From contig CAJTDE010000001.1 of NCBI GenBank assembly GCA_910574835.1, positions 310,001-374,000 of the forward strand: 64,000 nt of DNA, in the 5' to 3' direction. The translations under genes and the position numbers were made by a program. The stretch is from Clostridia bacterium (GTDB lineage Bacteria; Bacillota; Clostridia; Lachnospirales; Lachnospiraceae). Under the pieces are notes generated by a model, which was not told the origin of the DNA, searched no databases, and was given only the letters and a program-made list of their open reading frames with translations. The first letter of the stretch is position 1; the number at the start of each line of letters is the position of its first letter. This document shows, piece after piece, positions 13,723-56,636 of this stretch.

Positions 13723-13741
13723 AGTAAGGCCTCCTATTTTG

Positions 13742-13857
13742 AGTCGCTACGCGACGGCACTAAAGGGTAAAGTCGCTTCGGCACACCTGTAATGAGAGAA
13801 ACTTTTATTCGAAAGGGCATTCATAAAAGTTCCTCTCGTGCGCCTTTGTGGCTTTAC
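13742..13857 (-). repeat. Dispersed leader hairpin element, copy 1 (core form)
   Basis: A 116-bp copy of the core element. In the sense of the downstream gene (13495-13722) it begins GTAAAGCCACAAAGG, contains the stem GAGAGGAACTTTTAT / ATAAAAGTTTCTCTC, and ends in CGTCGCGTAGCGACT. The AT-rich distal part found in full copies is missing; instead a truncated copy (1b) lies directly upstream. The conserved end is six bases from the AGGAGG of the gene. Confidence 0.9.
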
Positions 13858-13864
13858 TATTTAA

Positions 13865-13892
13865 ATCGCTGCGCGACGGCACTAAAGGGTAA
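13865..13892 (-). repeat. Dispersed leader hairpin element, truncated copy 1b
   Basis: A 28-bp remnant holding only the conserved end (GCGCAGCGAT and CCCTTTAGTGCC in sense). It abuts copy 1 in tandem, in the same orientation, just after the stop of the large membrane protein. Confidence 0.8.
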
Positions 13893-13914
13893 CACCGCTT
13901 TCCTGGCTTCTCTC

Positions 13915-15816
13915 CTACACCGGCGGCTGTATATTGGGAATACAGCAGCAGGCAAAGGAATAGAGTGATAAAATCGCAGTTGTGCAAATCAGGCATTGAA
14001 ACCACTTTGACTTCAACACCTTGGGGTTTAAAGATACTGCATGGGCTACGAAAATCAGCACCGGCAGCATATAGCGTCCCTGAGCCTGAAAATCAATAAA
14101 CCAGCCATTATATACCACCAGCACCCAGGAAATAAACGCCATCAGGTGAAGCAGCACAAACTTCACCTTTTTCTCTTTCTGCCCCTTTTCCCGCCAAATA
14201 GAAACGCTCAATCCCACATAAAGTATGATATATAATATCCCTATTATTGTCACATACCATTCGGGGCTTGGAAATTGCAGGCAGCCATAGGTTCCCACAA
14301 AGGAAGCAAACAGTATGGTGTGGAACCCCATATGAAATAAAAGCTCTTTCAGCGTAACTCCCTTACCATAGAGATTAAAGGCCGGACCCTGTACCTCCGG
14401 CGGTGAGGCCGGGCGAAGCATTGGAATCGCTATCTCATTTTGCATCTCTAAAATCACCTGCTGCTTATGAATCCCATAATGTATAAATTCCGGAATGTAA
14501 CGAATCCCCAGAAACAGTAAAGCCGCTCCCGCAAGCAGCAGGCAGCCTGTCAGTCTCTTTCGCCGCTCCGTCTTCGGGGCCGCCGCCAGCTCCGTCAAAA
14601 GCATTGCAAACGCATAAATCGCAATTACATAATAATTTTGCTTGGACATAAAAATATTGGAGAAGAGAAAGCCCAAAAGCAGCACCCGCCAGACATCTCT
14701 TTTTTCCACGCCTTTTTTGAGCAGTCTCTGCAGCATGCTTTCCGGATTCGCCAATTGATACAGTACAAGCACTGCTACCGCAAAGTCCAAAGCATCCGAG
14801 GTACAGTATGTATACAAATACCAAACCTGAGGCGTTAAAAAAAGCGCACAAAGTAAATATCGATTCTTCTTCAGATTCCAAAAAGCCAGATAAAAAAGGC
14901 CGGCCATCATACATACGCCAAAGAATCTTGTTCCGCTTTCCAAAGTAACAAACCGGGCAATCAAAGCCGCAAGCATATAGTAAAGGTTCAGCTCGGAAAG
15001 CCTCGCAGTCCCGTACAGCGAATAAGCCTCTAAAGGAAGCTCCCTCATATCCGGAATCTTCCAGTGGGTGGTATAATACCGCACAGAATAGATACCTTCC
15101 GATTCATCCGGGTTAATGGCCGAAGAACCTGTAAAAGCTCCATATGCAACTAATATGACAGCGCAAATCCCTGCCGCATAAAGAATCGTATTGGAGATTC
15201 CAAACAGCCTGGAACCGGAGAGCCTTTTTACATACCGCCTGTAAAAAGAAATCACAAGCATTGCCAAAGCCAGCAAAGGAATCAAATAAAAAATTCCCGT
15301 CCAGGCACAGCGCTTTGCCGCTGTTTTATAAAAATCCCGGAACACTTCCGTAGGAAAAAGCTGAGAATCTTCCCCTTCAATCCAAAGCCCCAGGCATCCG
15401 TCCTCTGTCTCATACATCCGCACCTGATCATTGGGAACAAACGCCTGTAAAAGCTCCTCTCCCTCCAAACGGCCGGCATAAAATCCATTCATATAAAATG
15501 TTATGGAACGCACGGCAGATTCATTATTGAAATTGTAATCCATAGGGTCCATTCGCTTCACATAAGTCCCTTTTCCATAAGAAAAGTCAAAGAAAGCCAC
15601 ATGTGCCTCCCCTGGTCTTTCGTAAGTCCGCCGCACACTGTCTATCCCTGCATGTTCGCGGTAGGAGGTCAGTACTTTCCAATGATCCCCCGCCGAATAG
15701 TCCTCCTTTGCAAAATCGATTCGAATTTCTGCCAAAACCACAAAGGGATGCAGCAGAAAACACAAAAGCAGCACCATGATTGCAAGAAGCTTATATTGTT
15801 TTTTAATCCACGTCAT
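13915..15816 (-). CDS. Polytopic membrane protein, GT-C glycosyltransferase-like
   Basis: A 633-residue protein with a signal-anchor N-terminus, an extracellular segment of about 150 residues, and some 12 membrane helices. The first extracellular loop after helix 2 carries NPDESEGIYSVRYYTTHWK, which resembles the Asp-containing loop of DUF2142/GT-C enzymes that move sugars from polyprenyl carriers. FQAQGRYMLPV near the C-terminus is also typical of such families. The ATG at 15816 was preferred to the TTG one codon earlier (AGGAGG, 7-base spacing). It overlaps the vWA gene by 14 bases. The family assignment is moderate. Confidence 0.65.
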   Translation of the reverse strand: MTWIKKQYKLLAIMVLLLCFLLHPFVVLAEIRIDFAKEDYSAGDHWKVLTSYREHAGIDSVRRTYERPGEAHVAFFDFSYGKGTYVKRMDPMDYNFNNESAVRSITFYMNGFYAGRLEGEELLQAFVPNDQVRMYETEDGCLGLWIEGEDSQLFPTEVFRDFYKTAAKRCAWTGIFYLIPLLALAMLVISFYRRYVKRLSGSRLFGISNTILYAAGICAVILVAYGAFTGSSAINPDESEGIYSVRYYTTHWKIPDMRELPLEAYSLYGTARLSELNLYYMLAALIARFVTLESGTRFFGVCMMAGLFYLAFWNLKKNRYLLCALFLTPQVWYLYTYCTSDALDFAVAVLVLYQLANPESMLQRLLKKGVEKRDVWRVLLLGFLFSNIFMSKQNYYVIAIYAFAMLLTELAAAPKTERRKRLTGCLLLAGAALLFLGIRYIPEFIHYGIHKQQVILEMQNEIAIPMLRPASPPEVQGPAFNLYGKGVTLKELLFHMGFHTILFASFVGTYGCLQFPSPEWYVTIIGILYIILYVGLSVSIWREKGQKEKKVKFVLLHLMAFISWVLVVYNGWFIDFQAQGRYMLPVLIFVAHAVSLNPKVLKSKWFQCLICTTAILSLYSFACCCIPNIQPPV

Positions 15817-17569
15817 CAAGCTGCCTCCTCAGATACCGGCCAACCACACCGGAAAAATTCATAATATCCCGGATATAGGCAAAATCCCGTCCAAAGATCC
15901 GCCGCTCCGCCTGCAGGTCCTGCTCCTCCCCTGCAAATACTCCAAGAACCGAGATCCCCATAGCCCGAACCTTCCGCACCTCCGCCGCCGTATCTCTCAC
16001 CGCATAATCGCCGGAATAAGGCATAGGATTCCGGCTGCCCGGCCGGTTTACAATAATATCATTGGGTCGTCCGTCGCTCAGCACAATCAGAACCTTATGC
16101 TCCTCCGGCCTGCTCATCAGACTGTCGGCCGCCGCACGGATCGCCAGACCGTCCCGGTTGTTGGAGGAAGCGTAAAACTCAAAGATTTTCTGATTTGCCT
16201 CTCTTGGGTCATCGTAATCCCGGTAGCGCTGCATCACCGTGTAATCCCAGAAGGTACAAAATCCCATTACCTGATGGGGAATATCCACAATGCTCAAAGC
16301 CTCGCTGAGAATAAAGCCCTGCAGCGCCACCAGGCTCTGCCTCCGTTTCTGGGAACCGCTGGCGTCAATCAGCACATATACCGCAAAGTCAGAATTGTCC
16401 TTTCGAAGCTCCCGCTCAAAGAGCTTTTTATCCCGGCTGCGCCCCACCTTCCAGAGCTTCACAGGAACAATCCGGCCAAACTCCGAGGGCAGAACCTCCC
16501 GCTCGCTGCGGGCCGTAAGCGCCCGGCGCAGAGTGTCGGAGAGATGCTCGACATTTCTTCTGGACACACGCATACAGTGGCCATATGCCTTCAGATTCTC
16601 CGACTTTGCTCGTCTGGCATATTCCGACTGATAATTTTTCTTCACCATACCGGAGAGAATCCCGTCCGTAAAATAAAGGCTGCAATCCGCATGAGCGCCG
16701 CGACAGAGACTTCGGTTTACCCGCTGCCGTTCCTGTCCGGACAGATAGGAACGTCCGTAATTAAGCTCAATATAGGAAAACATTTTGTCTGCCGCTTCCT
16801 GGTCAACCAGAACCCGCTTGGATCGAAGCCGCTTTTTCTCCTCTGCCTGAGCCTCCTGATCCGCAAGCTGCGTAGCCACATTCGTCACCTGGGAGAGATA
16901 GCGGTCAAAATCCTCCTCATAAGCCTCTTCCTCCAGAAAATCCTGCCACCGGAATTCCCTTAATTTCTCCATCGGAACAGAAAGCACCGTGTCAAGGGAA
17001 CCATGCCGTTCTGCAAAATGAGGGTCCACCAGCCAGTTGTAAAGGTCATCCACAGTCCGTATCACTGTCATGGTATCCTCTGTCTCACAGAGCGCTTCCA
17101 GCATGTCCGCCGCCTTTCGGATGCGGCTCTGCATGGTCCTGGGACCCAAAACCGCTTCCTGCATAACGGAAAGGCGTATCTGCCCGATAAAGGAAGCCGC
17201 AAGCCTGGTAAAATCGTACTCCATAAGATCCTCAAAAGCCTTTTTCCGAATCTCCAGAATCCCCGGCCGCTCCCTGCTGATTTTCCTGTAAACGGCGCTG
17301 TCCACACAGAGCTGCGCCAGACTGGTCAGGGGCTGCTCCTCCCCGCCGCAGTAGAGCTTTTTTACCAGATAGAGTCCGAAGGCATCCCGGTCAAAGTATT
17401 TGGAAAATGCGCCTTGTTTAACGGCGTCGTACAGAGATACATAGACAGATTTGGAGTAGGATATCGTATCTGGCTTCAGATTGAGGTCATAATCACCGCT
17501 GACTGTCCAGCAAAGATTCCGAAGCCTGTTTTCAATTTCAAATTGGTCAATCTCATATGCTTCTTCCAT
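15803..17569 (-). CDS. vWA-domain protein, CobT/NorD-like partner of a MoxR ATPase
   Basis: A 588-residue soluble protein. The first 380 residues are mostly helical and unrecognised. The C-terminal 200 residues form a von Willebrand A domain with an intact metal-ion site: DASGS at 402-406, a conserved Thr region, and LSDGRPND near 500. The gene lies just downstream of a MoxR-family ATPase, the standard pairing (CbbQO, NorQD) in which ATPase and vWA protein remodel or metallate a target. No target is evident. Copy 2 of the hairpin element separates the two genes and provides the leader before its AGGAG. Confidence 0.85.
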   Translation of the reverse strand: MEEAYEIDQFEIENRLRNLCWTVSGDYDLNLKPDTISYSKSVYVSLYDAVKQGAFSKYFDRDAFGLYLVKKLYCGGEEQPLTSLAQLCVDSAVYRKISRERPGILEIRKKAFEDLMEYDFTRLAASFIGQIRLSVMQEAVLGPRTMQSRIRKAADMLEALCETEDTMTVIRTVDDLYNWLVDPHFAERHGSLDTVLSVPMEKLREFRWQDFLEEEAYEEDFDRYLSQVTNVATQLADQEAQAEEKKRLRSKRVLVDQEAADKMFSYIELNYGRSYLSGQERQRVNRSLCRGAHADCSLYFTDGILSGMVKKNYQSEYARRAKSENLKAYGHCMRVSRRNVEHLSDTLRRALTARSEREVLPSEFGRIVPVKLWKVGRSRDKKLFERELRKDNSDFAVYVLIDASGSQKRRQSLVALQGFILSEALSIVDIPHQVMGFCTFWDYTVMQRYRDYDDPREANQKIFEFYASSNNRDGLAIRAAADSLMSRPEEHKVLIVLSDGRPNDIIVNRPGSRNPMPYSGDYAVRDTAAEVRKVRAMGISVLGVFAGEEQDLQAERRIFGRDFAYIRDIMNFSGVVGRYLRRQLDDVD

Positions 17570-17585
17570 ATACTTCTCCTATTAA

Positions 17586-17752
17586 AGTCGCTGCGCGACA
17601 GCACTAAAGGGTAAAGTCGCTTCGGCACACCTGTGATGAGAGAAACTTTCATTCGAAAGGGCACTCATGAAAGTTCCTCTCGTGCGCCTTTGCGACTTTA
17701 CCGGACAGCCAAGAGTATTTCTTATAAACACTTGACATTTCTTAGCCGGACT
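17586..17752 (-). repeat. Dispersed leader hairpin element, copy 2 (full, 167 bp)
   Basis: A full-length copy, 167 bp. Sense ends are AGTCCGGCTAAGAAATGTC and CGCGCAGCGACT. The main stem reads GAACTTTCAT / ATGAAAGTT where other copies read GAACTTTTAT / ATAAAAGTT: both strands of one base pair have changed together. It lies between the MoxR and vWA genes and ends five bases before AGGAGA of the vWA gene. Confidence 0.93.
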
Positions 17753-17799
17753 ATTTCTCTTCTATCCGCAATGTGCCCGGGAATCTCCGATACGGTCTA

Positions 17800-18738
17800 C
17801 TAGAACACTTCATCCCCGGTCCACTCCTCCGGAATCCGGGTCATCACAATATCCCCGATAATCTCCTTCTCAAAAATATCAAAGCTCTTATTCGTAATCC
17901 CCATCGTAATGGCCTTCCGGGGTGAAATCCCGATCCGTATGGTTTTCAGCGCCCCAATCATGCCTCGCAGATCCATAGGCTTTGTGGAAATCTCGCTGTT
18001 CTGCGCCTTAAGCTGCAGATCCAGAAACAGGCCGGCAAAATGCTTTAAGCCCTCCTCCTTTGCATCGGGAAAATTCTTCTTGAGAATCAGCAGTAAGGTT
18101 TCCTCCGTAAGAGGCGGCATATCAATCACCAGGAAACGGGAAACAAGCGCCTCATTAAGCTCCTTTGTTCCTGCATAGCCGTAATTCATAGTTCCGATAA
18201 ACCGTGTGGCCGGATGAAGCTCAATCTTGTCGTATCCCGGCACATCGATTATCCGACGGTAGTCCAAAGTGGCATGCAACACGGACACAGCGTCATTTTT
18301 GGCCATATTAATCTCGTCAAAGATACCGAAGCCGCCGTTGACGGCACACTGATACACGGGACCCTTACGCAGACGCACCTCATTATCCGCAAAGGTGTCC
18401 GTTCCGATAAGAGAACTGCTGTCCGTATTCACATTAAAAGAGATATTGTAGGAGGGACGGCGAAAAATCCAGGCCAGGTTTTCTGCCAGAATATTCTTTC
18501 CCGTGGCCTTAGAACCGCTCAGCAGGACATTTTCTCCCTGGAGCAGCGCGGCTATGGCCATCTCCAGTATTTCCTTCCCGTAAAACGGAATCGGCGGCAT
18601 GACAATGCGGTTTTTTACCTCCTCCGATACCTGATGTGCCTCACGAAACCTCTCCACCTCACGGATAAGGCCCGGAGATACGTGTTGTTCTTCTAAAAAC
18701 TGCAATTCCTTCATAAGATTCTCTTCCTCTGCTTTCAT
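17800..18738 (-). CDS. MoxR-family AAA+ ATPase
   Basis: A 312-residue AAA+ ATPase of the MoxR/CbbQ/NorQ group. Walker A is GSKATGKN (75-82) and Walker B GIFDEIN (138-144); sensor and arginine-finger regions follow (GTMNYGYAGT, ALVSRFLVIDM). Walker A ends in Asn where nearly all P-loops have Thr or Ser, the residue that holds magnesium. The partner is the vWA gene downstream. The start at 18738 has a weak ribosome site; an internal ATG eight codons on, after AGAGGAAGAG, is an alternative. Confidence 0.85.
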   Translation of the reverse strand: MKAEEENLMKELQFLEEQHVSPGLIREVERFREAHQVSEEVKNRIVMPPIPFYGKEILEMAIAALLQGENVLLSGSKATGKNILAENLAWIFRRPSYNISFNVNTDSSSLIGTDTFADNEVRLRKGPVYQCAVNGGFGIFDEINMAKNDAVSVLHATLDYRRIIDVPGYDKIELHPATRFIGTMNYGYAGTKELNEALVSRFLVIDMPPLTEETLLLILKKNFPDAKEEGLKHFAGLFLDLQLKAQNSEISTKPMDLRGMIGALKTIRIGISPRKAITMGITNKSFDIFEKEIIGDIVMTRIPEEWTGDEVF

Positions 18739-18772
18739 TTATCCAAATATCGTTATCCGCGGGAACAAAATA

Positions 18773-19486
18773 CTATTCCAATGTCTTAATATACGGCACC
18801 AGTTCATCAAAATGACGTATTTCCCTGAATGTTCCTTTCAATTGCTCCGAATCCTCCGGAAGTTTATTTCCGTTTGGATTGTACCAGACGCCGTGCATAC
18901 CGCAGGCGGACGCGCCGCAGGCATCCTTCTTCAAATTATCTCCCACAAAAACGCACTCCTCCGGCCGGGCCTCCGCTTTTTTGATGCACAGCTTCATAAA
19001 TTCCGGATGCGGTTTCTCCACTCCCGCCTCCTGGCTGGTTACTATATGGCTGATAAACGGAGCAAAGCCAAAGGCCGACAGCTTTTCATACTGCATCATG
19101 GCTGTCATATCCGTTCCGATTCCGATGCGGATACCCATAGACTTTAATTCCTGCATACAGGCGACAGCTCCCGGCTCCGGCCCGCTTACCTTCAAAAGCG
19201 TATCCCAATAGACGTGATACATAGCCTGTACGTGAGGAAACAGGGGCTTTCCCCATTTTTCCAGAAGATTCTGAAAGCGGATGCTGCGGCTGTGGATGGC
19301 TGCGTTATCCTTTCCCAAACGGTCCGTTATCTCCTGGTTGCTGATACGCACCATGCTCTGAAATTCCCCCTGCTCTATGCCGAACTGCTCCTTCATATAG
19401 CCATAGAGCTGCTTCATCCCCTCGCCGTGACCCTTGTCATAGCTGTAAAGGGTGTTGTCAATATCAAAAATCACTTCCTTAATCAT
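18773..19486 (-). CDS. HAD-superfamily hydrolase (YjjG-like)
   Basis: A 237-residue haloacid-dehalogenase-type phosphatase. Motif I FDIDNTL gives the nucleophile D8 and acid D10. Motif II is GIGTDMT, the motif III lysine lies in GVEKPHPEFM, and motif IV is VFVGDNLKKD. The helical cap and overall length match YjjG/pyrophosphatase-like nucleotidases; the substrate is not determined. The ribosome site ATAGGAGG follows copy 3 of the hairpin element, which separates it from hemW upstream. Confidence 0.85.
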   Translation of the reverse strand: MIKEVIFDIDNTLYSYDKGHGEGMKQLYGYMKEQFGIEQGEFQSMVRISNQEITDRLGKDNAAIHSRSIRFQNLLEKWGKPLFPHVQAMYHVYWDTLLKVSGPEPGAVACMQELKSMGIRIGIGTDMTAMMQYEKLSAFGFAPFISHIVTSQEAGVEKPHPEFMKLCIKKAEARPEECVFVGDNLKKDACGASACGMHGVWYNPNGNKLPEDSEQLKGTFREIRHFDELVPYIKTLE

Positions 19487-19506
19487 GCTCTAATCCTCCT
19501 ATTTTA

Positions 19507-19673
19507 AGCCGCTGCGCGACGGCACTAAAGGGTAAAGTCGCTTCGGTACACCTGTAATGAGAGAAACTTTTATTCGAAAGGGCACTCATAAAAGTTCCTC
19601 TCGTGCACCTTTGCGACTTTACCAGTCAGCAGAAATTATTTTTTAAAATTACTTGACATTTCTTAGCCGGACT
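19507..19673 (-). repeat. Dispersed leader hairpin element, copy 3 (full, 167 bp)
   Basis: A full-length 167-bp copy between hemW and the HAD gene. Its distal end overlaps the 3' end of hemW: the last sense codons of hemW and its TAA (19663-19665) are element sequence (CAGTCCGGCTAA). Its other end lies six bases before AGGAGG of the HAD gene. In this copy the buried reading frame runs through to stop four bases past the HAD start codon. Confidence 0.93.
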
Positions 19674-20802
19674 GTAAAAACTCTGCCAACGCATAATTAC
19701 TCACATCAATCCCAAGCTCTGTCAATCGTACCCTTCCATTTTCCCGAATCAATAGTTCCTGCTGCTCCAATCTCTCAAACACGCCTCTATAGACCTTTAA
19801 AAGCTCCTCCGTCAGCAGAACTCCTTCCGTTTTCCGAAGGCCCAGAAACATGGTCTCCTCCAACTCCTCCTGCCTGGTAAGCCTGTGTTTATCCTCATGC
19901 CCATAATCACCGGCCAGATACGCGGACAGCTTCTTGTGATTGCGGTAACGCACTCCTTCTGTCAGAGAGGATGCTCCCAGTCCCAAGCCTAAGTATTCTC
20001 TTCTCTCCCAATAGCCGAGATTGTGCCGGCAGGCAAAACCCTGTCTGGCATAATTGGATATCTCATACCGCTCATAGCCCTCTGCCTTAAGTATATCCTT
20101 GGTGTCGTAATACATCTGCCGTTCCGTGTCCTCATCCGGCAAAAGGCGTTCCTCCCCGGCTCCCGGTCCGAAACGGTGATAAAAGGGCGTTCCCTCTTCT
20201 ATGATTAAGCTGTAAGCTGATATATGCTCCGGTTTGAGACTCAGTACTTCTCTTAAGGTCTGCTGCCAGCTTTCTTTCGTCTGCCCCGGAAGGGCTGACA
20301 TCAAATCCACATTGATATTTTCAAATCCCATTTCACGGGCCAGCATATAGCTCTGCAAAAACTCCTCATACGTATGAATCCTTCCAAGGAGGCGAAGCTC
20401 CTCGTTATCCGCTGACTGAAGCCCTATACTCAGGCGGTTTACGCCTTGCCGGCGGTAACAGGAAAGCTTGTCCGCCGTCAATGTGCCCGGATTGCACTCG
20501 ACCGTGATCTCGGCATCTGTTTCGACGTGAAAGCTGTCATGCACAGCCTCAAGAAGCTGCGCCATCTGCCCCCCATCCAGGATAGAGGGCGTACCGCCTC
20601 CGACGAAAATGGAAGTAACCCTTCGATTCAATCCAAGGGTCTTTTGCTGATAAATTTCTCCTTTTAATGCTTCCACATAGCAAAGCTGAACTGCTTTATC
20701 CGCCGGTACGGACAGAAAATCACAATAAGCGCATTTCTTTACACAAAACGGGATATGAAGATACAGCTCCAGTTCCGATTGTTTTTTTCCGTTTTCACAC
20801 AT
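19663..20802 (-). CDS. hemW: Radical SAM protein HemW
   Basis: A 379-residue HemW, a heme chaperone formerly annotated as oxygen-independent coproporphyrinogen oxidase. The radical SAM cluster cysteines are C20, C24 and C27 (CVKKCAYC), one residue spacing different from true HemN, and the HemN C-terminal domain follows. The start lies 16 bases after the lepA stop, so the two are one operon as in Bacillus. The C-terminal residues and stop come from the inserted hairpin element, so the tail may differ from orthologues. Confidence 0.93.
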   Translation of the reverse strand: MCENGKKQSELELYLHIPFCVKKCAYCDFLSVPADKAVQLCYVEALKGEIYQQKTLGLNRRVTSIFVGGGTPSILDGGQMAQLLEAVHDSFHVETDAEITVECNPGTLTADKLSCYRRQGVNRLSIGLQSADNEELRLLGRIHTYEEFLQSYMLAREMGFENINVDLMSALPGQTKESWQQTLREVLSLKPEHISAYSLIIEEGTPFYHRFGPGAGEERLLPDEDTERQMYYDTKDILKAEGYERYEISNYARQGFACRHNLGYWERREYLGLGLGASSLTEGVRYRNHKKLSAYLAGDYGHEDKHRLTRQEELEETMFLGLRKTEGVLLTEELLKVYRGVFERLEQQELLIRENGRVRLTELGIDVSNYALAEFLQSG

Positions 20803-20818
20803 ATCCTACCGTTTCCAA

Positions 20819-22633: not shown

Positions 22634-22741
22634 CGAATATTCCTCCGTATTTTTACTAAAAAGAATCCGGCCGCAAGGTATTTCCCAATAAAAACCACCC
22701 CCGGCTGACAGGGTTCTTTGTGTTCCTTGTCAATCGAGGGT

Positions 22742-22770
22742 AGTATAGCATAAACAGGAAGAAATGTAAA
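22742..22770 (-). promoter_or_regulatory. lepA promoter
   Basis: On the minus strand, TTTACA (22765-22770), 17 bases, TATACT (22742-22747), about 110 bases before the lepA start. Confidence 0.75.
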
Positions 22771-22788
22771 ATTCTTTCGGTAACTACT

Positions 22789-24072: not shown

Positions 24073-24120
24073 TTCCAATCACCCCATACTCCTTTCAAAT
24101 ATATTCGAAAGGATGCCGCC

Positions 24121-24978
24121 TTATGCCAATGCGATATTCAGAGCCTCGGAAATGGTAAAGCTTAAACGCTTGATGGTTTCGTCAATATCCTTCGGAGTGA
24201 CAAACATTCCGTTTAGATTAGGGGAAATGGCATTTCGATCCCCGGTAGCATCATAGATAATGGTTGCCGCATCTACAACTGTAGGAACTCCGATAGCCAC
24301 GATGGGGATGCCGAGAGTATCTTTTGTAAGGCTGTTCCGGTGATTTCCCACGCCGGAGCCCGGATGAATCCCTGCATCCGAAAGCTGAATCGTCCGGTTC
24401 AGACGCTTGGTGCTCCTGGCCGCCAGCGCATCAATAGCCACCACTACATCGGGTTTTGTCTCGTCAATGATTCCCTTAATAATCTCAAAGGTCTCCATAC
24501 CTGTCTGAGCCATGACGCCCGGCACAATTCCGCTTACAAGGTGTACCTTTTCCTTTCCCAAGGCAGCTTTTCCGTATTCCCGCACTACATGCCGGGTAAT
24601 CATCAAGTGATTCACTGCCTCCGGCCCCAGTGCGTCAGGTGTCACTTCCCGGTTGCCAAGCCCTACCACCAGCACGGATTTTTCCTCCTCGGTTCCAAGA
24701 AGCTCCTTAAGCTCCTCTGCCAGTTGTACGGACACTTCCCTGTGATACCCCTCATCCGGATCGGAAAGCCTGGGCGCCTCCAGGGTAAGATATGTCCCTA
24801 CAGGCTTTCCCATAGCCTTAGCCCCGTTCTCTGTCTCAATACATACCCGAGTGATACGGATGTCCCGTTCCTCGTCATAGCTCTCTTCTATGGCCACCCC
24901 GCGAATCTCTACATTGTCCTCCTCAAAGCTCTCCCGGGCCTCCAGCGCCAAATCCGTTCGAATCTGAAATCGTTCCAC
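24121..24978 (-). CDS. gpr: Germination protease (GPR)
   Basis: A 285-residue GPR, the aspartic-type protease that degrades small acid-soluble spore proteins at germination. Conserved blocks visible are VVGLGNREVTPDALGP, GIVPGVMAQTGMETFEI, VVAIDALAARS and GSGVGNHR. The N-terminus (ERFQIRTDLALEARE) is the propeptide region removed during autoprocessing. The start is GTG behind GGAGAG. It diverges from rpsT and is followed by spoIIP, as in Bacillus and other Clostridia. Confidence 0.97.
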   Translation of the reverse strand: MERFQIRTDLALEARESFEEDNVEIRGVAIEESYDEERDIRITRVCIETENGAKAMGKPVGTYLTLEAPRLSDPDEGYHREVSVQLAEELKELLGTEEEKSVLVVGLGNREVTPDALGPEAVNHLMITRHVVREYGKAALGKEKVHLVSGIVPGVMAQTGMETFEIIKGIIDETKPDVVVAIDALAARSTKRLNRTIQLSDAGIHPGSGVGNHRNSLTKDTLGIPIVAIGVPTVVDAATIIYDATGDRNAISPNLNGMFVTPKDIDETIKRLSFTISEALNIALA

Positions 24979-25041
24979 TCTCTTTCTCTCCTATTCCGCT
25001 GTTTTCCTTATTATTTTCTCTTATTTTTTCAGAATTATGTA

Positions 25042-25070
25042 TTGACAGAACGTCTTTCCTGGCATAAAAT
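25042..25070 (+). promoter_or_regulatory. rpsT promoter
   Basis: TTGACA (25042-25047), 17 bases, TAAAAT (25065-25070), a near-consensus sigma-A promoter about 130 bases before the rpsT start. Confidence 0.85.
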
Positions 25071-25080
25071 GAATGAGTAT

Positions 25081-36750: not shown

Positions 36751-36752
36751 TT

Positions 36753-40548: not shown

Positions 40549-41487
40549 TTATTTGCTATATGCTCTCTCCTCCAGCCAGGAATACAGCTTGTCAAAGACA
40601 ATCTCTGCCCGCAGCTCCATAGATTCCGCCGAAGCAAAGGCAATATGAGGCGTCACAATGGTATTCGGACTGTGAAGAAGAGGATGCTCCCGAGACAGAG
40701 GCGGCTCTGTCTCAAACACATCGCAGGCGGCCCCGCCAAGTCTGCCTTCCTTAAGCGCCTCCGCCAACGCATCAGAGTCTACAACGGCTCCTCTGGCCGT
40801 GTTAATAAGAAAAGCTCCCTCCTTCATAAGCGCTAACTGTTCTCTTCCTATCATCCCCTTTGTCTCTGCTGTCAGAGGACAGTGAAGGGACACAATATCG
40901 GAACGCTTCAACAGCTCTTCCAGTGTTACCTGTTCGTCAATAGACGGATCCTGCACCTTACTTCTGTTAAAAGCAATCACCTTACATCCAAATGCCTTGC
41001 AGAGCAAAGCTGTCTTTTTCCCGATTGCGCCGGCTCCCACGATACCCACTGTCTTTTTATACAGCAGATTGCCGATAAGGCCGTCCTTTGTTCCGCTCTC
41101 CCGGCAGCGCCGCTCTGTCTGGTTTACATTGCGCAAAAGCTGAATCATAAAACCGATGCACAGCTCCGCCACTGCCTGGGTTGCGTAGCCGGATGCATTG
41201 GTCACGGTGATCCCCTTCTTCTTTGCTTCCTCCATCGGAATGTGATCCAGTCCGGTGAAAGCCACATTAATATACTTCAAAGAAGGAGCCTTTTCCAATA
41301 CGGACTCATGAAGGGGCATATTTGCCAGCATAATTACATCCGCATCTTTGCTCCGCTTTGCCTGAACCTCCGGGGAAGTATCCTTTTCGTAGGCCGTAAA
41401 GGTATGTCCCATCTCCTTTAATTTTTCCGCGTGCTTCTCCAACACTTTTTCCGAGACGCCAAGTCCCTCTAACAATACAATCTTCAT
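40549..41487 (-). CDS. D-isomer-specific 2-hydroxyacid dehydrogenase
   Basis: A 312-residue NAD-dependent dehydrogenase. The Rossmann motif is GIVGAGAIGKKTALL, followed by the catalytic Arg (NTARGAVVD), Glu (VFETEPPL) and His (TPHIAFAS). It reduces a 2-oxoacid such as glyoxylate or hydroxypyruvate, or oxidises the corresponding D-hydroxyacid; glyoxylate would fit ureidoglycolate breakdown. It lies between pucR and ansA. A truncated hairpin element precedes its ATAGGAG ribosome site. Confidence 0.88.
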   Translation of the reverse strand: MKIVLLEGLGVSEKVLEKHAEKLKEMGHTFTAYEKDTSPEVQAKRSKDADVIMLANMPLHESVLEKAPSLKYINVAFTGLDHIPMEEAKKKGITVTNASGYATQAVAELCIGFMIQLLRNVNQTERRCRESGTKDGLIGNLLYKKTVGIVGAGAIGKKTALLCKAFGCKVIAFNRSKVQDPSIDEQVTLEELLKRSDIVSLHCPLTAETKGMIGREQLALMKEGAFLINTARGAVVDSDALAEALKEGRLGGAACDVFETEPPLSREHPLLHSPNTIVTPHIAFASAESMELRAEIVFDKLYSWLEERAYSK

Positions 41488-41506
41488 CTTAGTATTCTCC
41501 TATCAT

Positions 41507-41533
41507 AGTCGCTGCGCGACGGCACTAAAGGGT
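41507..41533 (-). repeat. Dispersed leader hairpin element, truncated copy 4
   Basis: 27 bp of the conserved end only (ACCCTTTAGTGCC and GCGCAGCGACT in sense), five bases before AGGAGA of the 2-hydroxyacid dehydrogenase gene. The hairpin itself is gone, yet position and orientation match the full copies. Confidence 0.88.
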
Positions 41534-44338: not shown

Positions 44339-45586
44339 TTAATAGGTCACGGTTTTCTTTTCATCGTATACATCGCGATCCAATTCACCCAGCTTGCTGG
44401 CTACCAAAAGACCTACCATAACATCCACATCAACGTTCATCAGTGTACGGAACATTCCGGAGAACCAGTCAATGCCAATCAGTACCGCAATACTCTCAAG
44501 AGGCAGTCCCAGAGAGGACGCCAGGAAGGTATATACGATAACAGAGCCGCCCGGTACGGAAATAGTTCCCATGCACATCAGACAGGAAAGAAGAATCGCC
44601 ATGCCCATCTGATAAGGCGTCATTGAAATTCCCGTTGACTGTGCCATAAAGAAGATGGCCGCCACATAGCACTGTGCTGCGCCGCAGCTGTTCATGGACA
44701 TGGTAATCGGTCCGGTAAAGCCTGCCACCTTGCGGCTGATGCCAAACTTTGTAACCTCGTCCTCCATCTTTGTAGGAAGGCAGATAGCGCCTGAGGTCGT
44801 TGTAACAGCCATCATGGACATTTTCGCAAACTTCTTCGGCATCTTGAAAAGATTTACCTTGCAGAGAGCCGCCGTCATAGGTCCAAAGAAAACAAACTGG
44901 ATAGCGTCTCCAATCAAAAGCAGTCCCAAGAACTTCATCATAGGAATAATTACTTTGAGACCTGTCACGCCTGCAACATTTGCCAAAAGACAGAAGATAC
45001 CGATGGGAGCGATGTTCATAACCATCTTAATAATGTTGGTAACAACCGCATTCATGCTCTTTACCCAGTCTACCATAATCGTATTGCCTGTTTCCTTGGT
45101 GTAGACGCCCATAGCGGCGCCAAACATCAGCGCAAATACGATACAGGGAACCATGCTTCCCTCAGCCATAGAACCGATAATATTTGTCGGAACAAAGTTC
45201 AGAAGGGTGTCCTGAAGAGAAGCGGACTGTACCTCTGTGTTTGCTATGGCATCCGCACCCACCAGTTCAATTCCTGCACCCGGACGGATAAGCATGGAAA
45301 GAAGCATACCAAGAGCTGCGGAAATAATGGTAAAGAAGATGATCCACTTAAAGGTGTGGAAGCCCATCTTGCCCACGTCTTTTCCGTCCCCGCCTCCTAC
45401 TGCCGCCGATACGGAAGACATTACCAATAATACAACTGACATCTGTATCAGGCGGATAAAAATATCTCCGATAAACTTTAAATTTCCTGCCCAGGGTCCA
45501 ACAATTGTTCCAAAGATAATACCCGCAACGGTGGCAATCAAAATCTGATTTGTTAACGAAATATTTAACCCTTTTTTCTTATTCAT
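44339..45586 (-). CDS. Dicarboxylate/amino acid:cation symporter (DAACS)
   Basis: A 415-residue member of the glutamate transporter family with about eight membrane helices and two hairpin loops. Family marks include the serine-rich region (AVTTTSGAICLPT, where GltPh has SSSATLP), the unwound helix region TMSMNSCGAAQ, and GSVIVYTFLASSLGL. It imports an acidic solute with sodium or protons. In this operon a ureide or its acid is a plausible substrate, but this is not readable from sequence. Confidence 0.88.
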   Translation of the reverse strand: MNKKKGLNISLTNQILIATVAGIIFGTIVGPWAGNLKFIGDIFIRLIQMSVVLLVMSSVSAAVGGGDGKDVGKMGFHTFKWIIFFTIISAALGMLLSMLIRPGAGIELVGADAIANTEVQSASLQDTLLNFVPTNIIGSMAEGSMVPCIVFALMFGAAMGVYTKETGNTIMVDWVKSMNAVVTNIIKMVMNIAPIGIFCLLANVAGVTGLKVIIPMMKFLGLLLIGDAIQFVFFGPMTAALCKVNLFKMPKKFAKMSMMAVTTTSGAICLPTKMEDEVTKFGISRKVAGFTGPITMSMNSCGAAQCYVAAIFFMAQSTGISMTPYQMGMAILLSCLMCMGTISVPGGSVIVYTFLASSLGLPLESIAVLIGIDWFSGMFRTLMNVDVDVMVGLLVASKLGELDRDVYDEKKTVTY

Positions 45587-45619
45587 AACTCTCTCCTATT
45601 CCAGTTCCGTAATAACCCC

Positions 45620-46873: not shown

Positions 46874-46943
46874 GACTTTTTCCTCCATATATTTTTTATT
46901 ACTTTCTGCGGCCGCCGACCATATGAATACGGGTCAGTCCTCC

Positions 46944-48551: not shown

Positions 48552-48620
48552 TTGATGCATCTCCTTAACAGCCCTGCGGGCAAGCCTTTTGGCCTGCCCC
48601 AAAGCTTCCAGTTGTATTTT

Positions 48621-49556: not shown

Positions 49557-49573
49557 AGCGGTCTCCTTTCTAT

Positions 49574-52500: not shown

Positions 52501-52576
52501 CGGAGATATGATTTGTAAGGAGCATCAGTACAACTGAATCATGGTAGCTCCCTTTTTGTACAACCGTTCTTAACAT
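49574..52576 (-). CDS. allFG: AllF-AllG fusion: oxamate carbamoyltransferase subunits
   Basis: A 1000-residue protein. Residues 1 to about 580 match AllF/FdrA, a succinyl-CoA-synthetase-like fold (MMATPANKDIF, LMGPDCGTGII, GIIGASGTGIQELTT, DLGDDAYTQGKPHPMIDP, and the terminal INIGLKSFAE...PPAGGN). Residues from about 600 to 1000 match AllG/YlbE (DUF1116: HCNAVGPMGGITSPNM, NETGGNRAYC, MGDEFHQRN). E. coli encodes these as separate genes. With AllH they convert oxalurate and phosphate to oxamate and carbamoyl phosphate. The frame is unbroken through the junction. The ATG 52576 follows AGGAGGAG. Confidence 0.93.
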   Translation of the reverse strand: MLRTVVQKGSYHDSVVLMLLTNHISAIEGVKKVSIMMATPANKDIFKQSGLDTEELMSATANDMVVVADVDDEGLLDVIMAETEEFFKKQSTDSDKKKGAESVKSWDKALKKMPDANLAVISIPGAYAALEADRALDEGLNVFMFSDNVTIEDERALKEKAHKKGLCLMGPDCGTGIIQSVPIAFTNKVAPGSIGIIGASGTGIQELTTIIDRLGEGVTNAIGIGGRDLNAAIGGITMMDMIDAMEDDDSVKVLIIISKPPAKEVRDKISARLSSFSKPVVTLFVGEKPTYHEENFYHTYTLDEAARLAVSLVRGVEIPEATIDIDESAFFKAEDNKTIKAYYSGGTLANEAAMLIKDAMNCEVPPEDIEGYMLQLDGNVVVDLGDDAYTQGKPHPMIDPAKRIECMQSAVDDESTGVILLDIMLGYGSHADMAGALLPSIIELRDKAEAQGRKVFFVATVCGTRTDYQGYDEAVNKLKEAGVIVCENNKLACRTAIRAIGRDFEEPVKEIRSKEVADAEKAAPSDKLRELLSEKPRIINIGLKSFAEVCEQFGCEVVQYDWMPPAGGNVELIKVLNFLRNYEGIEEKNREVIAKVVASQPVLKDNVRAKEVIPELAAGKVILHAGPPVDYKNMPDPMQGSCVGAVLFEEWADNEADARKLLENGEITFIPCHHCNAVGPMGGITSPNMAVFVVENETGGNRAYCTMNEGIGKVLRFGAYSEEVVDRLRWMRDILGPTLGKALRSMDNGLAINPLIAKAVAMGDEFHQRNIAASLAFLKEVAPIITAMDMDEKDRYDVIKFLADTDQFFLNIMMATSKAVMDDARKGTDGTIVTAMCRNGYEFGIRIAGMGDEWFTGPVNTPQGLYFTGYDGEDACPDMGDSAITETFGVGGMAMIAAPAVTRFVGAGGYEDALRTSNEMMEIVIDRNPNFTVPTWNFQGICLGIDARLVVEKGITPVINTGIAHKIAGYGQIGAGTVHPPVECFEKAIKAYAEKLGFQG

Positions 52577-52850
52577 TCTTTTCTCCTCCTGAAATTTTAT
52601 TCTATGCTCTGTATTATACATGCGGTTTTTGTAAATATCATTGTCCATCCCTTCTAATTCCAAAAGAGATTTTTGTCCATTATGAATGGCGTACACAAAA
52701 GCCCTAAAATATCATTGTGCATTTTAGACAATTCAATATAGGCATTTTGTCTGTTTTATATAATGATTTTCCTACTATTTTCCTATAAGCTAAGTATTGA
52801 GTTAGGCACTTAATAGGGGCCGAATAATCAACTTACAGGAGGGATACATA
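52577..52850. promoter_or_regulatory. Divergent regulatory region, allFG / YfcC transporter
   Basis: TATAAT boxes are present on both strands: minus at 52613-52618 for allFG, and plus near 52760 for the transporter, neither with a good -35, which fits activator-dependent promoters. TTGTCCAT occurs at 52641-52648 and 52673-52680, with the related TTGTGCAT near 52715. The same core, TTGTCCAC, recurs upstream of allD (56371). These are candidate PucR-type sites. Confidence 0.5.
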
Positions 52851-54257
52851 ATGTCAAAAGACGCGACACAAAAGAAAAAGCAATCCATGCATCCATTTGT
52901 AATCATTGTTTTAATTCTGCTGGTTGCTGCCGTTGTTTCCAATTTTCTTCCGGCAGGTGAATATCAGAGAGTAGCCGGACCGGACGGAAGGACAATTGTA
53001 GATCCGACCACTTTCCAGTTTATATCAAGAGACGGCTTCAATCTTATGAATATTTTAACTGCCATACCCCGCGGTATTGAGGCAGCCGCCAACGTTGTTG
53101 TTATTACCTTAATGATCGGCGGTGCATTTGGTATCATTAAGAAAACAGGTATGCTGAATCTTGGCGTAAAGAGTTTGGTAAAAACCTTTTCCAATAACAA
53201 AATCGCTATTATTTTTGTACTTTATCCTATATTTGCTGCCATTACCGGATTCATCGGCGTTCCGGAGCTGTGCTTGGTATATATACCTGTACTGATGCCG
53301 CTGCTCTTTTCCCTTGGATTTGACTCCATGACTACGGTAGCTATCTCTCTGTGCTCCACTGCCGCCGGTTTCAGCGCCGCATGGTCCGCACCGGCAACCG
53401 TAGGTCTCGGAGATCAGTTAGCGGAGCTTCCTATGTATTCCGGAATGGGCTTCCGTATCTTAACCGTTGTCATATTGACTGTTACGGCTGCCGTTTACAC
53501 TGCTATTCATGCACGTAAGGTTTTGAAAAACCCGAACCTCAGTCCCGTATATACGGAGGATCAGGAAAACCGCCTGTTATTCAAATCGGACGATGATTCC
53601 GCTGCTGTTTATCCCCGTGTAAAGCTTTCCGGTGTTGTCACAATTTTAATGTTTGTAGGACTGATTGCCGGTGTTATTATCTCCAGCTGGGGATTTGAGG
53701 AGATGGCCGGATACTTCATTGTTATGGGCGTTGCAGCCGGTATTACGGCCGGAATGTCCCTGCGCGACACCTGTGATTCCTTTGAGGCAGGCTTAAAGGA
53801 AATGCTGGTAGGCGCATTGATCTGCGGTATTGCAAGAGGTATTTCCGTTGTACTGACGGATGCCTGCGTTATGGATACCATTATCATGTACCTTGCAAAC
53901 TTTGTATCCGCTCTGCCTTCCAACCTGGCTGCTATCGGAATGTTTATTATCACAAGCCTGTTCAACGGCGTAATCGCCTCCGGAAGCGGAAAAGCCGTGA
54001 TTTCTCTGCCCATTATGATCCCGCTGGCAGATATCACCGGAGTTACACGTCAGACCACACTTCTTGCTTATCAGCTTGGAGACGGCATTACCAATATTCT
54101 CTGGCCGGCTTCCGGATACTTTATGGCAGCTCTGGCTATCGGAAAAATGAACTACAAGAAATGGGTAAAATGGTTCTTCCCACTCTTAATTGTCTGGTTG
54201 GTTGTGGCATGTGTTATGGTCGCTATTGCAAGCGCTATCGGATATGGGCCATTCTAA
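52851..54257 (+). CDS. YfcC/DcuC-like membrane transporter
   Basis: A 468-residue carrier of the YfcC family (ion transporter superfamily) with about 11-12 helices. Typical segments are FLPAGEYQRV, PRGIEAAANVVVITLMIGGAFGII, GFIGVPELCLVYIPVL and SGSGKAVISLPIMIPLAD. Relatives carry peptides, C4-dicarboxylates or short-chain acids. It is divergent from allFG and the only plus-strand gene in the middle of the block, so uptake of allantoate or allantoin is the simplest inference. AGGAGG precedes the ATG. Confidence 0.85.
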   Translation: MSKDATQKKKQSMHPFVIIVLILLVAAVVSNFLPAGEYQRVAGPDGRTIVDPTTFQFISRDGFNLMNILTAIPRGIEAAANVVVITLMIGGAFGIIKKTGMLNLGVKSLVKTFSNNKIAIIFVLYPIFAAITGFIGVPELCLVYIPVLMPLLFSLGFDSMTTVAISLCSTAAGFSAAWSAPATVGLGDQLAELPMYSGMGFRILTVVILTVTAAVYTAIHARKVLKNPNLSPVYTEDQENRLLFKSDDDSAAVYPRVKLSGVVTILMFVGLIAGVIISSWGFEEMAGYFIVMGVAAGITAGMSLRDTCDSFEAGLKEMLVGALICGIARGISVVLTDACVMDTIIMYLANFVSALPSNLAAIGMFIITSLFNGVIASGSGKAVISLPIMIPLADITGVTRQTTLLAYQLGDGITNILWPASGYFMAALAIGKMNYKKWVKWFFPLLIVWLVVACVMVAIASAIGYGPF

Positions 54258-54347
54258 AAAAATATTGCTGCGGAGTATTTGACTGCAAAATAAGGAGACA
54301 GGCTGACAGCCCCGTCTCCTTATTTTTACTTAAGACATTCTGTTTAT

Positions 54348-55205
54348 TCAATGCATAAATACTTTCCGCCTCTGCAGAAGATAGAGTATTCCGCTCAAGG
54401 TATCCATCCCGGAGGAATGACCGATCGCCGAAAAATCTGCCGAAATCTCCTTCCTGTCAGGAAGACGGCTCAGGGAATTGACCGCCTGGCTGAACTGTCC
54501 CTCCAATGCACACCTAAGAAATGCGGCGCTGATCTCATTGGTATCCGCAAGACGCAGTCCGATATCTTCCTTTAACGCCTGCGCAAAGGGGTGCCTGTTT
54601 CCTCCGCATAAAATCAATCCGGCCAATACTCCGCACAAGAAATCATCTCCTCCGGGAGTCAGCCCCAGACCAAGTCCAATCAAACGGCACAGTTCCCCGG
54701 AAGCCGCCTCCCAACAGGACTTTTCCAAAGCTTGGGAAGCTTCCTTAAGACGCTTCCCCGCAACAGCCAAAAACGGAATCTCCTCCGCATCCGGCAAACA
54801 AGAAAAAAGTACGTCAAAGCTTCCCTTATGGCCGGATGACACCACAGCCATAAGAGCATCCTCTAAAAGTACAAGCGACTCCTCCGGAAGCGCTCCCTTA
54901 AGCTTTAAATCCTGCAGGGACGCCGACTCAAAGAAAAAAGTGCAGTCTTTTCCCACGCTTAAAGAATCAGAGGTTACAACTGCCTGTTCTCCGATTTCCA
55001 GCGGCAGAGCAGCCATCCCCTCTTCTGTCAGCGGCAGTATCAGGCTGATAGGCGACAGGGGTGATCCTTCTGCCTGCAAAGCTGCAAGCTGACCCCCAAA
55101 AGAAAGATTGATCGTTTTCCGATAAATAGAATGTACGGTTCCCTGCGTATACCTGCCAAGAAGCCCAAGCACATATCGGGAAGCAGATGTTATAGACAGA
55201 TTCAT
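54348..55205 (-). CDS. allH: AllH, third subunit of oxamate carbamoyltransferase (DUF2877)
   Basis: A 285-residue DUF2877 protein. The family hallmark GLGLGLTPGGDDFLCGVLAG is present at about residues 175-194. In E. coli AllH (YlbF) works with AllF and AllG in oxamate carbamoyltransferase. Here the fused AllFG gene lies 1.8 kb away across the YfcC-type transporter. The ribosome site is AAGGAG. It follows the alpha/beta hydrolase gene by 16 bases, so the two are co-transcribed. Confidence 0.92.
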   Translation of the reverse strand: MNLSITSASRYVLGLLGRYTQGTVHSIYRKTINLSFGGQLAALQAEGSPLSPISLILPLTEEGMAALPLEIGEQAVVTSDSLSVGKDCTFFFESASLQDLKLKGALPEESLVLLEDALMAVVSSGHKGSFDVLFSCLPDAEEIPFLAVAGKRLKEASQALEKSCWEAASGELCRLIGLGLGLTPGGDDFLCGVLAGLILCGGNRHPFAQALKEDIGLRLADTNEISAAFLRCALEGQFSQAVNSLSRLPDRKEISADFSAIGHSSGMDTLSGILYLLQRRKVFMH

Positions 55206-55221
55206 AGAAGCTCCTTTCGTA

Positions 55222-56076
55222 TCAGCCCTGCTGATGCTCCTCTAAAAATGCAAGGGAAGCCTCCAGAAGTTCGGCCGTAAAGGGATTGTCCGGGTCACGG
55301 TCAAAATCATGTACATTGCCGGATTCAATAAAACGCTTTGCCTGATACCTCTCGCAAAGCGCCAGAAATTCTTCGTAGGGAACATCCGTGTCTCCTGTGG
55401 AATGAGCGGCAAAAAGCGGGCATGGAAGCTCTTCGCAGGTGCGCAGAGTAAAATTCAGATAAAAAAACTTCTCACGGCCTTTATATATCAAACGGCTCCA
55501 ATTTCCCGTCTGCCTTGCATAGACATACACGGCATAGTGGGTATCAAGCGTTCCCTCTCCGTGAAGCTTCCCGGGTATGTAATCAAGGCAGGAAGCATCC
55601 ACGGAGGGCAGCGTCTGATAAAAGCTGCTGGGCGTGCGGAACCAATTGTCGCATAAAAATCCATATCCGTAATAAGATAAGATTCCGGCAGGTTTCACCT
55701 TTAACCGGCCGCTTGCCGCAGCAATCAGGCAAAGGTAGGCGCCGGCAGAGCGGCCCCAAAGATAATACGGCAGCTTTGCATCCGTTAATCTGCAGTCCTT
55801 CTCGCAAACACCATTGATGGATTCCCTTACATCCTCCGCAATCTGTTCCAGATCTGCCGCCGGCGCAAGAGGGTAATCAAAGGCTAAGATCTCATAGCCG
55901 GCCCGCGTGAACCACTCCAAATGACCTTGAGGCAGATCCTCCCGGGAACCAAAGATAAGTCCTCCGCCGTGAAAGTAAAGAAGCCTTGCCTTGGGCATAA
56001 TTTCCGAATCCGTATATCTTGTGCACCATTTTTCCCAATCCGGGTGCTCCATATTCCAATTCTGTTTTTGCAGCAT
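55222..56076 (-). CDS. Alpha/beta hydrolase of the HGGG type
   Basis: A 284-residue esterase/amidase-like hydrolase. The oxyanion motif is YFHGGGLIFG, the nucleophile elbow WGRSAGAY, and the acid and base appear in HSTGDTDVP and NVHDFDRD. The substrate is unknown; its place upstream of allH suggests a ureide-pathway role such as hydrolysing an ester or amide intermediate. Its mRNA leader carries two tandem hairpin elements (copies 5 and 6). The ribosome site ATAGGAGG adjoins copy 5. Confidence 0.82.
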   Translation of the reverse strand: MLQKQNWNMEHPDWEKWCTRYTDSEIMPKARLLYFHGGGLIFGSREDLPQGHLEWFTRAGYEILAFDYPLAPAADLEQIAEDVRESINGVCEKDCRLTDAKLPYYLWGRSAGAYLCLIAAASGRLKVKPAGILSYYGYGFLCDNWFRTPSSFYQTLPSVDASCLDYIPGKLHGEGTLDTHYAVYVYARQTGNWSRLIYKGREKFFYLNFTLRTCEELPCPLFAAHSTGDTDVPYEEFLALCERYQAKRFIESGNVHDFDRDPDNPFTAELLEASLAFLEEHQQG

Positions 56077-56097
56077 AAGCCTGCTCCTCCTATTTGT

Positions 56098-56214
56098 AGT
56101 CGCTGCGCGACGGCACTAAAGGGTAAAGTCGCTTCGACGCACCTGTATTGAGAGAAACTTTTATTCGAAAGGGCACTCATAAAAGTTCCTCTCGTGCGCC
56201 TTTGCGACTTTACC
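56098..56214 (-). repeat. Dispersed leader hairpin element, copy 5 (core, 117 bp)
   Basis: A 117-bp core copy in the leader of the alpha/beta hydrolase gene, ending six bases before AGGAGG. The main stem GAACTTTTAT / ATAAAAGTT is intact. Upstream it is joined in tandem to copy 6. The reading frame buried in it continues 118 codons across the hydrolase gene in another frame, which is not a real gene. Confidence 0.92.
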
Positions 56215-56221
56215 TGGTTGT

Positions 56222-56286
56222 AGTCGCTGCGCGACGGCACTAAAGGGTAAAGTCGCTTCGGCGCACCTGTGACTTTACCAGTCAGT
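56222..56286 (-). repeat. Dispersed leader hairpin element, copy 6 (internally deleted)
   Basis: A derivative that keeps both ends (GACTGGTAAAGTC and GCGCAGCGACT in sense) but has lost about 50 bases holding the central stem. The outer stem GGTAAAGTC/GACTTTACC remains. It lies at the predicted start of the hydrolase transcript. Confidence 0.88.
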
Positions 56287-56291
56287 AGATT

Positions 56292-56320
56292 AGTATAGCA
56301 CAGGAAAAATCAACTTTAAA
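56292..56320 (-). promoter_or_regulatory. Promoter of the alpha/beta hydrolase-allH transcript
   Basis: On the minus strand, TTTAAA (56315-56320), 17 bases, TATACT (56292-56297). Transcription would begin near 56285, at the edge of copy 6, so copies 6 and 5 together form the leader. Confidence 0.6.
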
Positions 56321-56386
56321 TAGTCAATTTTTCATATATAATGCATCATAGACAAAAATAATTTGTGTATTTGTCCACAATGGAAA

Positions 56387-56415
56387 TTGAAAAAGGCGAT
56401 TATAATTGGCATAAT
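56387..56415 (+). promoter_or_regulatory. allD promoter with candidate regulator site
   Basis: TTGAAA (56387-56392), 17 bases, CATAAT (56410-56415). TTGTCCAC at 56371-56378 lies just upstream of -35, in the place expected for an activator. The predicted leader of about 215 bases contains the whole of element copy 7. Confidence 0.6.
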
Positions 56416-56450
56416 TGTTCTATCAAAATCAGTTTGCAGCGACTTTTAAT

Positions 56451-56617
56451 AATCCAGCTAAGAAATATCAAGTAATTTTGAAAAATAACTTCTGCTGGCT
56501 GGTAAAGTCGCAAAGGCGCACGAGAGAAACTTTTATGAGCGCCCTTTCGAATAAAAGTTTCTCTCAATATAGGTGCGCCGAAGTGACTTTACCCTTTAGT
56601 GCTGTCGCGCAGCGACT
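56451..56617 (+). repeat. Dispersed leader hairpin element, copy 7 (full, 167 bp, plus strand)
   Basis: The only copy on the plus strand, 167 bp, directly in the allD leader, with its conserved end six bases before AGGAGG. Stem and ends match copies 2 and 3. A remnant of another conserved end (GCAGCGACTT near 56436-56445) adjoins its distal side. Its buried frame gives a 28-residue peptide starting MSALSNKSFSQYRC and stopping just before the allD ribosome site. Confidence 0.93.
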
Positions 56618-56636
56618 TTAATTAGGAGGAAAAAAG

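Follow-up and report, generated by a model that had tools for sequence, protein, structure and literature searches.

Hairpin repeats placed in one orientation before Shine-Dalgarno sequences in a Clostridia genome and its relatives

MIRUs occur as tandem copies in a fixed orientation, REP/REPIN sequences, with their RAYT transposases, form many non-autonomous extragenic hairpins, and SINE-like retroposons have an invariant 3' end, 5' ends that are truncated in some copies and a variable A-rich tail. The repeats described here partly resemble SINE-like retroposons in these last three features and differ from them in that no dedicated reverse transcriptase was found and many of the short copies begin at one of two recurrent points, not randomly. 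They differ from REP/REPIN by their Shine-Dalgarno (SD) target, by a larger bulged hairpin and in that no Y1 transposase was found in the incomplete assembly of the relative G007, and they show, by eye, no terminal inverted repeats and, in the clean pairs described below, no target site duplication like those of a classical MITE. The closest precedent in kind is the MIRU, described as a short, apparently mobile repeat at translation-start signals that does little harm to the gene; insertion at such signals is the common trait (PMC12548453). MIRUs are said to enter at the start codon and to carry an internal ORF that becomes coupled to the gene, whereas the present elements lie at the SD and the internal ORF of their family A is without convincing coupling. 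Pneumococcal BOX, RUP and SPRITE repeats are likewise small, folded and interspersed, are likely to affect co-transcribed genes and, in the case of BOX, are modular (PMC3049150). BOX and RUP, however, have terminal inverted repeats, and no fixed SD distance is described for them in the portions of that source consulted (PMC3049150). Among the open-licence papers listed, a set that leaves out most subscription papers, none was seen to report mobile elements that prefer the SD strictly and in a strand-specific way.

Placement of the repeats before start signals

The window, that is, the whole 64-kb stretch of DNA analysed, belongs to a genome of 5.01 Mb in 133 contigs and holds copies on both strands that a repeat finder grouped as one family (Table 1). 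A preliminary description had them all pointing into the next gene, with GCGACT, five or six A/T-rich bases, AGGAG and ATG in this order at six genes, on both strands, and with tandem units behind copies 1 and 5. Direct reading in gene sense bore out the order (hairpin, 5-6 A/T-rich bases, AGGAG, ATG) at the six copies nearest a gene, the presence of copies on both strands and the partial tandem units 1b and 6; the hexanucleotide is GCGACT at five of the genes and GCGGCT, one base off, at the gene at 18773.

Table 1 Repeat copies and family B tails in the window, with gene-proximal junctions in gene sense.
Feature	Position	Strand	Description	Junction	Remark
Copy 1	13736..13857	-	Family A unit, ~122-bp form, before gene 13495-13722; SD AGGAGG 13730-13735	GCGACT-CAAAAT-AGGAGG	5' boundary approximate
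Copy 1b	13858..13892	-	Tail-only unit (CCCTTTAGTGC...GCGATTTAAAT), tandem behind copy 1		Boundaries approximate
Copy 2	17581..17750	-	Long family A element (TCCGGC...TTTAAT), abuts AGGAG 17576-17580 of VWA/CobT-like gene 15803-17569	GCGACT-TTAAT-AGGAG	
Copy 3	19501..19671	-	Long family A element before HAD gene 18773-19486; SD AGGAGG 19495-19500	GCGGCT-TAAAAT-AGGAGG	
Copy 4	41502..41533	-	Tail-only unit continuous with ATTACGGAAC (a piece like family B), before gene 40549-41487; SD AGGAG 41497-41501	GCGACT-ATGAT-AGGAG	
Copy 5	56092..56213	-	Family A unit before gene 55222-56076; SD AGGAGG 56086-56091	GCGACT-ACAAAT-AGGAGG	5' boundary approximate
Copy 6	56214..56280	-	Partial unit, tandem behind copy 5		Boundaries approximate
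Copy 7	56453..56623	+	Long family A element before Ldh_2 gene at 56637; SD AGGAGG 56624-56629	GCGACT-TTAATT-AGGAGG	
Family B tail	6951..6965	+	TTACGGAACCGGAAT, before AGGAGG 6966-6971 and ATG at 6978		
Family B tail	45598..45612	-	TTACGGAACTGGAAT, before AGGAG of gene 44339-45586		

With two mismatches allowed, the bare 17-nt pattern was found 19 times in the window against 15.6 expected, which is not significant (20 of 100 shuffles reach 19); significance rests on the long repeat and the genome-wide set. The family A core CCCTTTAGTGCNGTCGCGNAGCG gave 203 matches in the 5.01 Mb at up to three mismatches (99 and 104 per strand) versus one for the reversed control. We examined 145 of these cores (76 and 69 by strand), within 84 stretches totalling 336,100 bp; 101 had no mismatch, and worn copies are therefore under-sampled. 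An SD and start codon followed 94 of the cores and another unit 45 (a short-type unit in 31 cases and a long-type unit in 14), with neither after six, two of which carry, by reading, a weak or shifted SD and ATG. The last copy of an array was followed by an SD and start under a loose rule in 94 of 100 cases, against 4.7% of 60,000 random positions in the same stretches, and under a strict rule in 83 of 100, against 0.26%; reading left four of the 100 with no clear SD or start. The element ends at the SD, which measures 5-6 bases and is followed by a spacer of 3-12 bases and the start codon. Upstream of the 94 arrays, a same-strand ORF ended within 160 bp in 68 cases, only a divergent one was found in eight and neither in 18. 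The placement of the repeat, in one orientation before an SD, is genome-wide; neither random orientation nor a majority of copies with no start codon after them, the outcomes that the preliminary description had named as refuting it, occurred in this tabulation of orientation and distance to the start codon. On a G007 contig of 348,568 bp, three of ten family A cores preceded another A unit and the other seven all preceded an SD and start.

The left flanks of several A copies end in TTRCGGAAC..GGAATAG, a motif that led us to family B, a diverged second family with a ~105-nt hairpin in the same position relative to genes; units measure ~105 bp in family B and ~122 or 171-174 bp in family A. The search for B left out the SD and was confined to the exact tail with a 35th base other than T. 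It returned 82 matches, followed by a B unit in 36, an A unit in four and a gene in 42, and 40 of the 42 gene-facing tails had a purine tract and a start codon within the 21 following bases. The bases after the B end differ by gene (AGGAGG, AGGAGA, GGAGG, AAGAGG, AGAAGG), so the SD is the gene's own. On the same G007 contig, ten B tails led into SD and start (five), B (two), A (one) and other sequence (two, in which reading placed the SD and ATG slightly further on). In three other genera, 22 B loci, fetched out of the 45 matches listed in those three genomes and counted by eye, ran straight into an SD and start in 14 cases (one weak), into another unit in seven and into a remnant and then an SD in one.

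Empty and occupied sites in relatives

The HAD gene behind copy 3 has an exact empty site in G007 (locus L162), GAGTTTTTACAG followed directly by GAGGATTAGAACATG, where the window reads GAGTTTTTACAG, the element (TCC...AAAATAG) and then GAGGATTAGAGCATG; the empty allele of this close relative, 97% identical at the locus, reads TTTTTACAG and, across the junction, GAGG..ATG. The two alleles differ by 173 bp and their flanks match at 38 and 40 of 40 positions, with AG common to both borders, leaving the cut position ambiguous by two bases. Some element is present at this site in L163, L164, L166 and L167 and none in L165, and gain and loss are for that reason not separable with certainty. Copy 2, before the VWA gene, is present in the own genome and L162 and missing in all five of L163-L167, each with AGGAG before the ATG; in the more distant L168-L170 the element is missing and there is no clear SD. 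As orthologs devoid of the element keep the SD (L162 at copy 3, L163-L167 at copy 2), the SD belongs to the gene. The gene at 6978 is preceded by a B tail in the own genome, by an A element in L167 and by only AAAGGAGTCAGATTTATG in L169 and L170. For the genes at 55222 and 56637 no ortholog was among the matches listed, all of which, outside the own genome, fell in the repeat part of the query.

A further 40 loci were sought in G007, and 26 matches were returned, a few of them too diverged for good comparison. At C5:106760, G007 has a clean extra unit of 171 bp, with flanks identical at 30 of 30 positions on each side and ATAG common to both edges; a second difference lies in the adjoining older unit. 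At C8:39041 the same SD carries an A element in the own genome and a B element in G007. Array length differs between the two genomes at four of the 26 loci, and a further array, at C7:104026, differs by a 174-bp unit, which could equally well stem from insertion or from recombination between repeats. Whole-unit presence and absence was found in only two clean pairs, either of which precise loss could account for.

Fold, ends and distribution

One A and one B copy, folded singly, share an architecture of outer stem, middle stem and inner hairpin, with a 7-nt bulge on the 3' side and then a short A-rich tail; bulge length varies somewhat across the B alignment. That alignment comprises 32 of 54 candidates, those with no full hairpin having been left out. 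Among its 32 sequences, 28 of 35 pairs changed on both sides, compared with a shuffled mean of 14.6 and 10-14 for slid structures, and 94.8% of cells were paired versus 83.0% after shuffling; none of 500 shuffles reached any of five measures. Compensatory changes maintain the fold of family B. Non-Watson-Crick cells on the mRNA strand comprise 55 G-U and 11 A-C in family B (37:11 for minority types only) and 205 G-U and 40 A-C in family A (102:38 minus the two pairs in which G-U is commonest), the A counts being restricted to the distinct units with a length of exactly 117 nt (84 of 99) and the shuffle control covering B only. The G-U lean suggests that the strand which folds is the sense strand, be it as RNA or as single-stranded DNA, and could partly reflect a mutational strand bias, for instance a transcription-linked one; together with the conserved fold it would fit an RNA role. 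Rfam 15 covariance models gave no match at gathering threshold in the window and none at E<=1 in six loci holding A or B copies. The inner-hairpin test was failed by 25 of the 145 A cores, C10:91133 through an indel only. At several B loci (e.g. L145:350-475, L152 and L199:12990-13120), the outer-stem sequence was locus-specific and present three times, as left direct repeat, complementary arm and right arm, such that the stem could pair in either of two ways.

The end facing the SD is constant to within a few bases, its junctions varying by 1-4 bases, and the tail between hairpin and SD is variable and A/T-rich. Of 78 non-tandem A units, 46 start within two bases of full length; by eye, the other 32 comprise 18 simple truncations (10 at a common 45-52 point, eight at scattered points), six internal deletions or variant hairpins, seven units inside arrays and one B/A chimera. 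The 5' ends are less ragged than at first look. Many tail-only copies begin near CTTTACCC, for which recombination between GCGACTTTA repeats could be an alternative origin. Chimeras of A and B exist at C25:3882 and upstream of the L162 ortholog of gene 13495-13722, the latter resembling B in its 5' half and A in its 3' half. The ends TCCRGC.. and ..ATAG form no inverted repeats by eye, no long target duplication was found in the clean pairs, whose edges share only AG or ATAG, and no autonomous copy with the same ends was noticed among the 145 examined cores (203 in the genome).

A search of 41 genomes found the A core (up to two mismatches) in eight, which all belong to a single genus, with 193 copies in the own genome, 125 in G007, 120 in G002, 117 in G012, 92 in G005, 19 in G004, 12 in G013 and two in G006; the core was absent from eight other members of this genus and from 25 genomes outside it. 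Among 200 genomes of the family, a covariance model of B matched at least four, the own genome being one of them, under strict filters that drop weak matches, and B-like tails also occur in loci of other relatives (L181, L188, L192, L199). The A core had no exact match in IMG/VR, and family A had no blastn match in PLSDB or INPHARED. RVT_1 does not track copy number, being found in none of the fragmented assemblies G012 (117 copies) and G006; it occurs in G000 (one), G002, G004, G005, G007 and G013 and also in the element-free G001, G010, G014 and G015. The only reverse transcriptase match in the own genome, L289:820-2394 (-), is a 524-aa protein with RVT_1 as its sole Pfam match. Y1_Tnp does not track copy number either: it is absent from the incomplete assemblies G007 (125 copies), G004 (19) and G006 (two) and numbers four in G000, seven in G002, six in G013 and one each in G005 and G012. 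In these incomplete assemblies neither a dedicated reverse transcriptase nor a Y1 transposase co-occurred consistently with the elements, and both were set aside as candidates.

Origin of the placement and minor observations

Position, orientation, empty sites with a prior SD, different families at one SD, differences in array length and the conserved B fold were observed directly, and they quite probably reflect a superfamily of non-autonomous mobile elements that insert beside or within existing SDs with the same end toward the start codon. An enzyme acting in trans would recognise the purine tract of the SD in one orientation, the sense strand would be the folded form, and the differences between the own genome and its relatives would represent insertions, best polarised for copy 2. 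Following insertion, the gene's AGGAG(G) and spacer would be intact and translation could still start; the SD would be a harmless landing place, mostly close behind another same-strand gene. Among the three roles that the preliminary description had offered (action in the mRNA, a ribosome site carried by the element, insertion only at ribosome sites), the last is the best supported, by the empty sites that keep the SD and by the different families at one SD. If confirmed, it would be a clear case of parasitic DNA exploiting a signal that can be interrupted without harm. The many genes with and without an element in sister species would serve as a natural experiment on the effect that structure immediately ahead of the SD has on translation, and a mobilising enzyme with a short purine-rich target, findable by strain comparison, would be expected.

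The second of those roles would make the repeats a mobile translation-initiation module bringing its own ribosome-binding site, as the four occurrences of AATAGGAGG in the window, every one adjoining an element, and the lack of a clear SD at the copy-2 site in L168-L170 might suggest. It is contradicted by the SD found at the same place in the element-free L162 (copy 3) and L163-L167 (copy 2) and by the gene-dependent bases after the element end; we rejected this very improbable reading, which the empty sites largely contradict. An unlikely alternative with more in its favour is a cis-acting regulatory or processing RNA that is retained for an effect on translation or on the cleavage or stability of the mRNA and owes its position to selection rather than targeting. 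The conserved fold with its compensatory changes, the G-U lean on the mRNA strand and the same-strand ORF ending at most 160 bp upstream of 68 of the 94 arrays are consistent with such an RNA, but similar copies precede unrelated genes, relatives 97% identical at the locus differ in presence, one SD can carry different families, and an edge fixed within a few bases is not expected from selection alone.

Several routes of movement can be weighed. Single-strand DNA transposition of the HUH type (Y1 or Y2), with the hairpins as recognition sites and CCTC(CT) on the bottom strand as target, would explain the strand-specific target, the hairpins near the ends, the lack of a long target duplication and the AG at both borders of the empty and filled pair, and tandem insertion would follow because the element ends like its target. 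It is rather unlikely, given that no Y1_Tnp was found in G007 (125 copies) or G004, the variable 5' ends and a G-U lean that places the fold on the other strand. Site-specific recombination at an AG/CT core, by a serine recombinase or an IS110-like system with a guide RNA, would suit the AG common to both borders in the clean pairs and a structured element of 105-174 nt; several B junctions with no AG (GGAAT/GGAGG) and, again, the variable 5' ends make it very unlikely. Our tentative first choice among the mechanisms considered, with a real if minor chance of being correct, is an intermediate of RNA (or of the sense strand) whose copying would start at the constant end next to the SD, favoured because it would fit the constant 3' end, the variable 5' ends, the variable A-rich tail and the A/B chimeras, and given less weight because of the tally of 5' ends (18 simple truncations among 32). 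Some of these features resemble target-primed reverse transcription, but reverse transcriptases do not track copy number. The more specific version, a bacterial SINE-like retroposon whose RNA would be aimed at SDs, for instance by pairing of its 3' SD with the CCTCC strand of other genes, with translation signals as landing sites that insertion would rebuild, is quite doubtful.

Within the window, CAGCGGAATAGGAG at 24979-25001 (-), before gene 24121-24978 and also present in L162, may be a B-tail remnant that is shorter still. No internal ORF was noticed by eye in family B. Family A contains an internal reading frame, MSALSNKSFSHYRCAEATLPFSAVAQRL, of which variants occur (e.g. window 17582-17668, -), and an in-frame ATG lies upstream of the core in 95 of 145 cases. 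The stop of this ORF fell between -40 and +10 of the start codon in 57 of 94 arrays, the other two frames giving 74 and 62 of 94, and an ORF coupled as in MIRUs was rejected because its stop is no better placed than those frames would place it. The family A frame sometimes continues in frame into the downstream gene, so gene callers may add false N-termini. At the opposite end, copy 3 holds the TAA stop (19663-19665; TCC GGC TAA, 19663-19671) of the upstream HemN-like gene, and its insertion would therefore alter the last residues of that protein.
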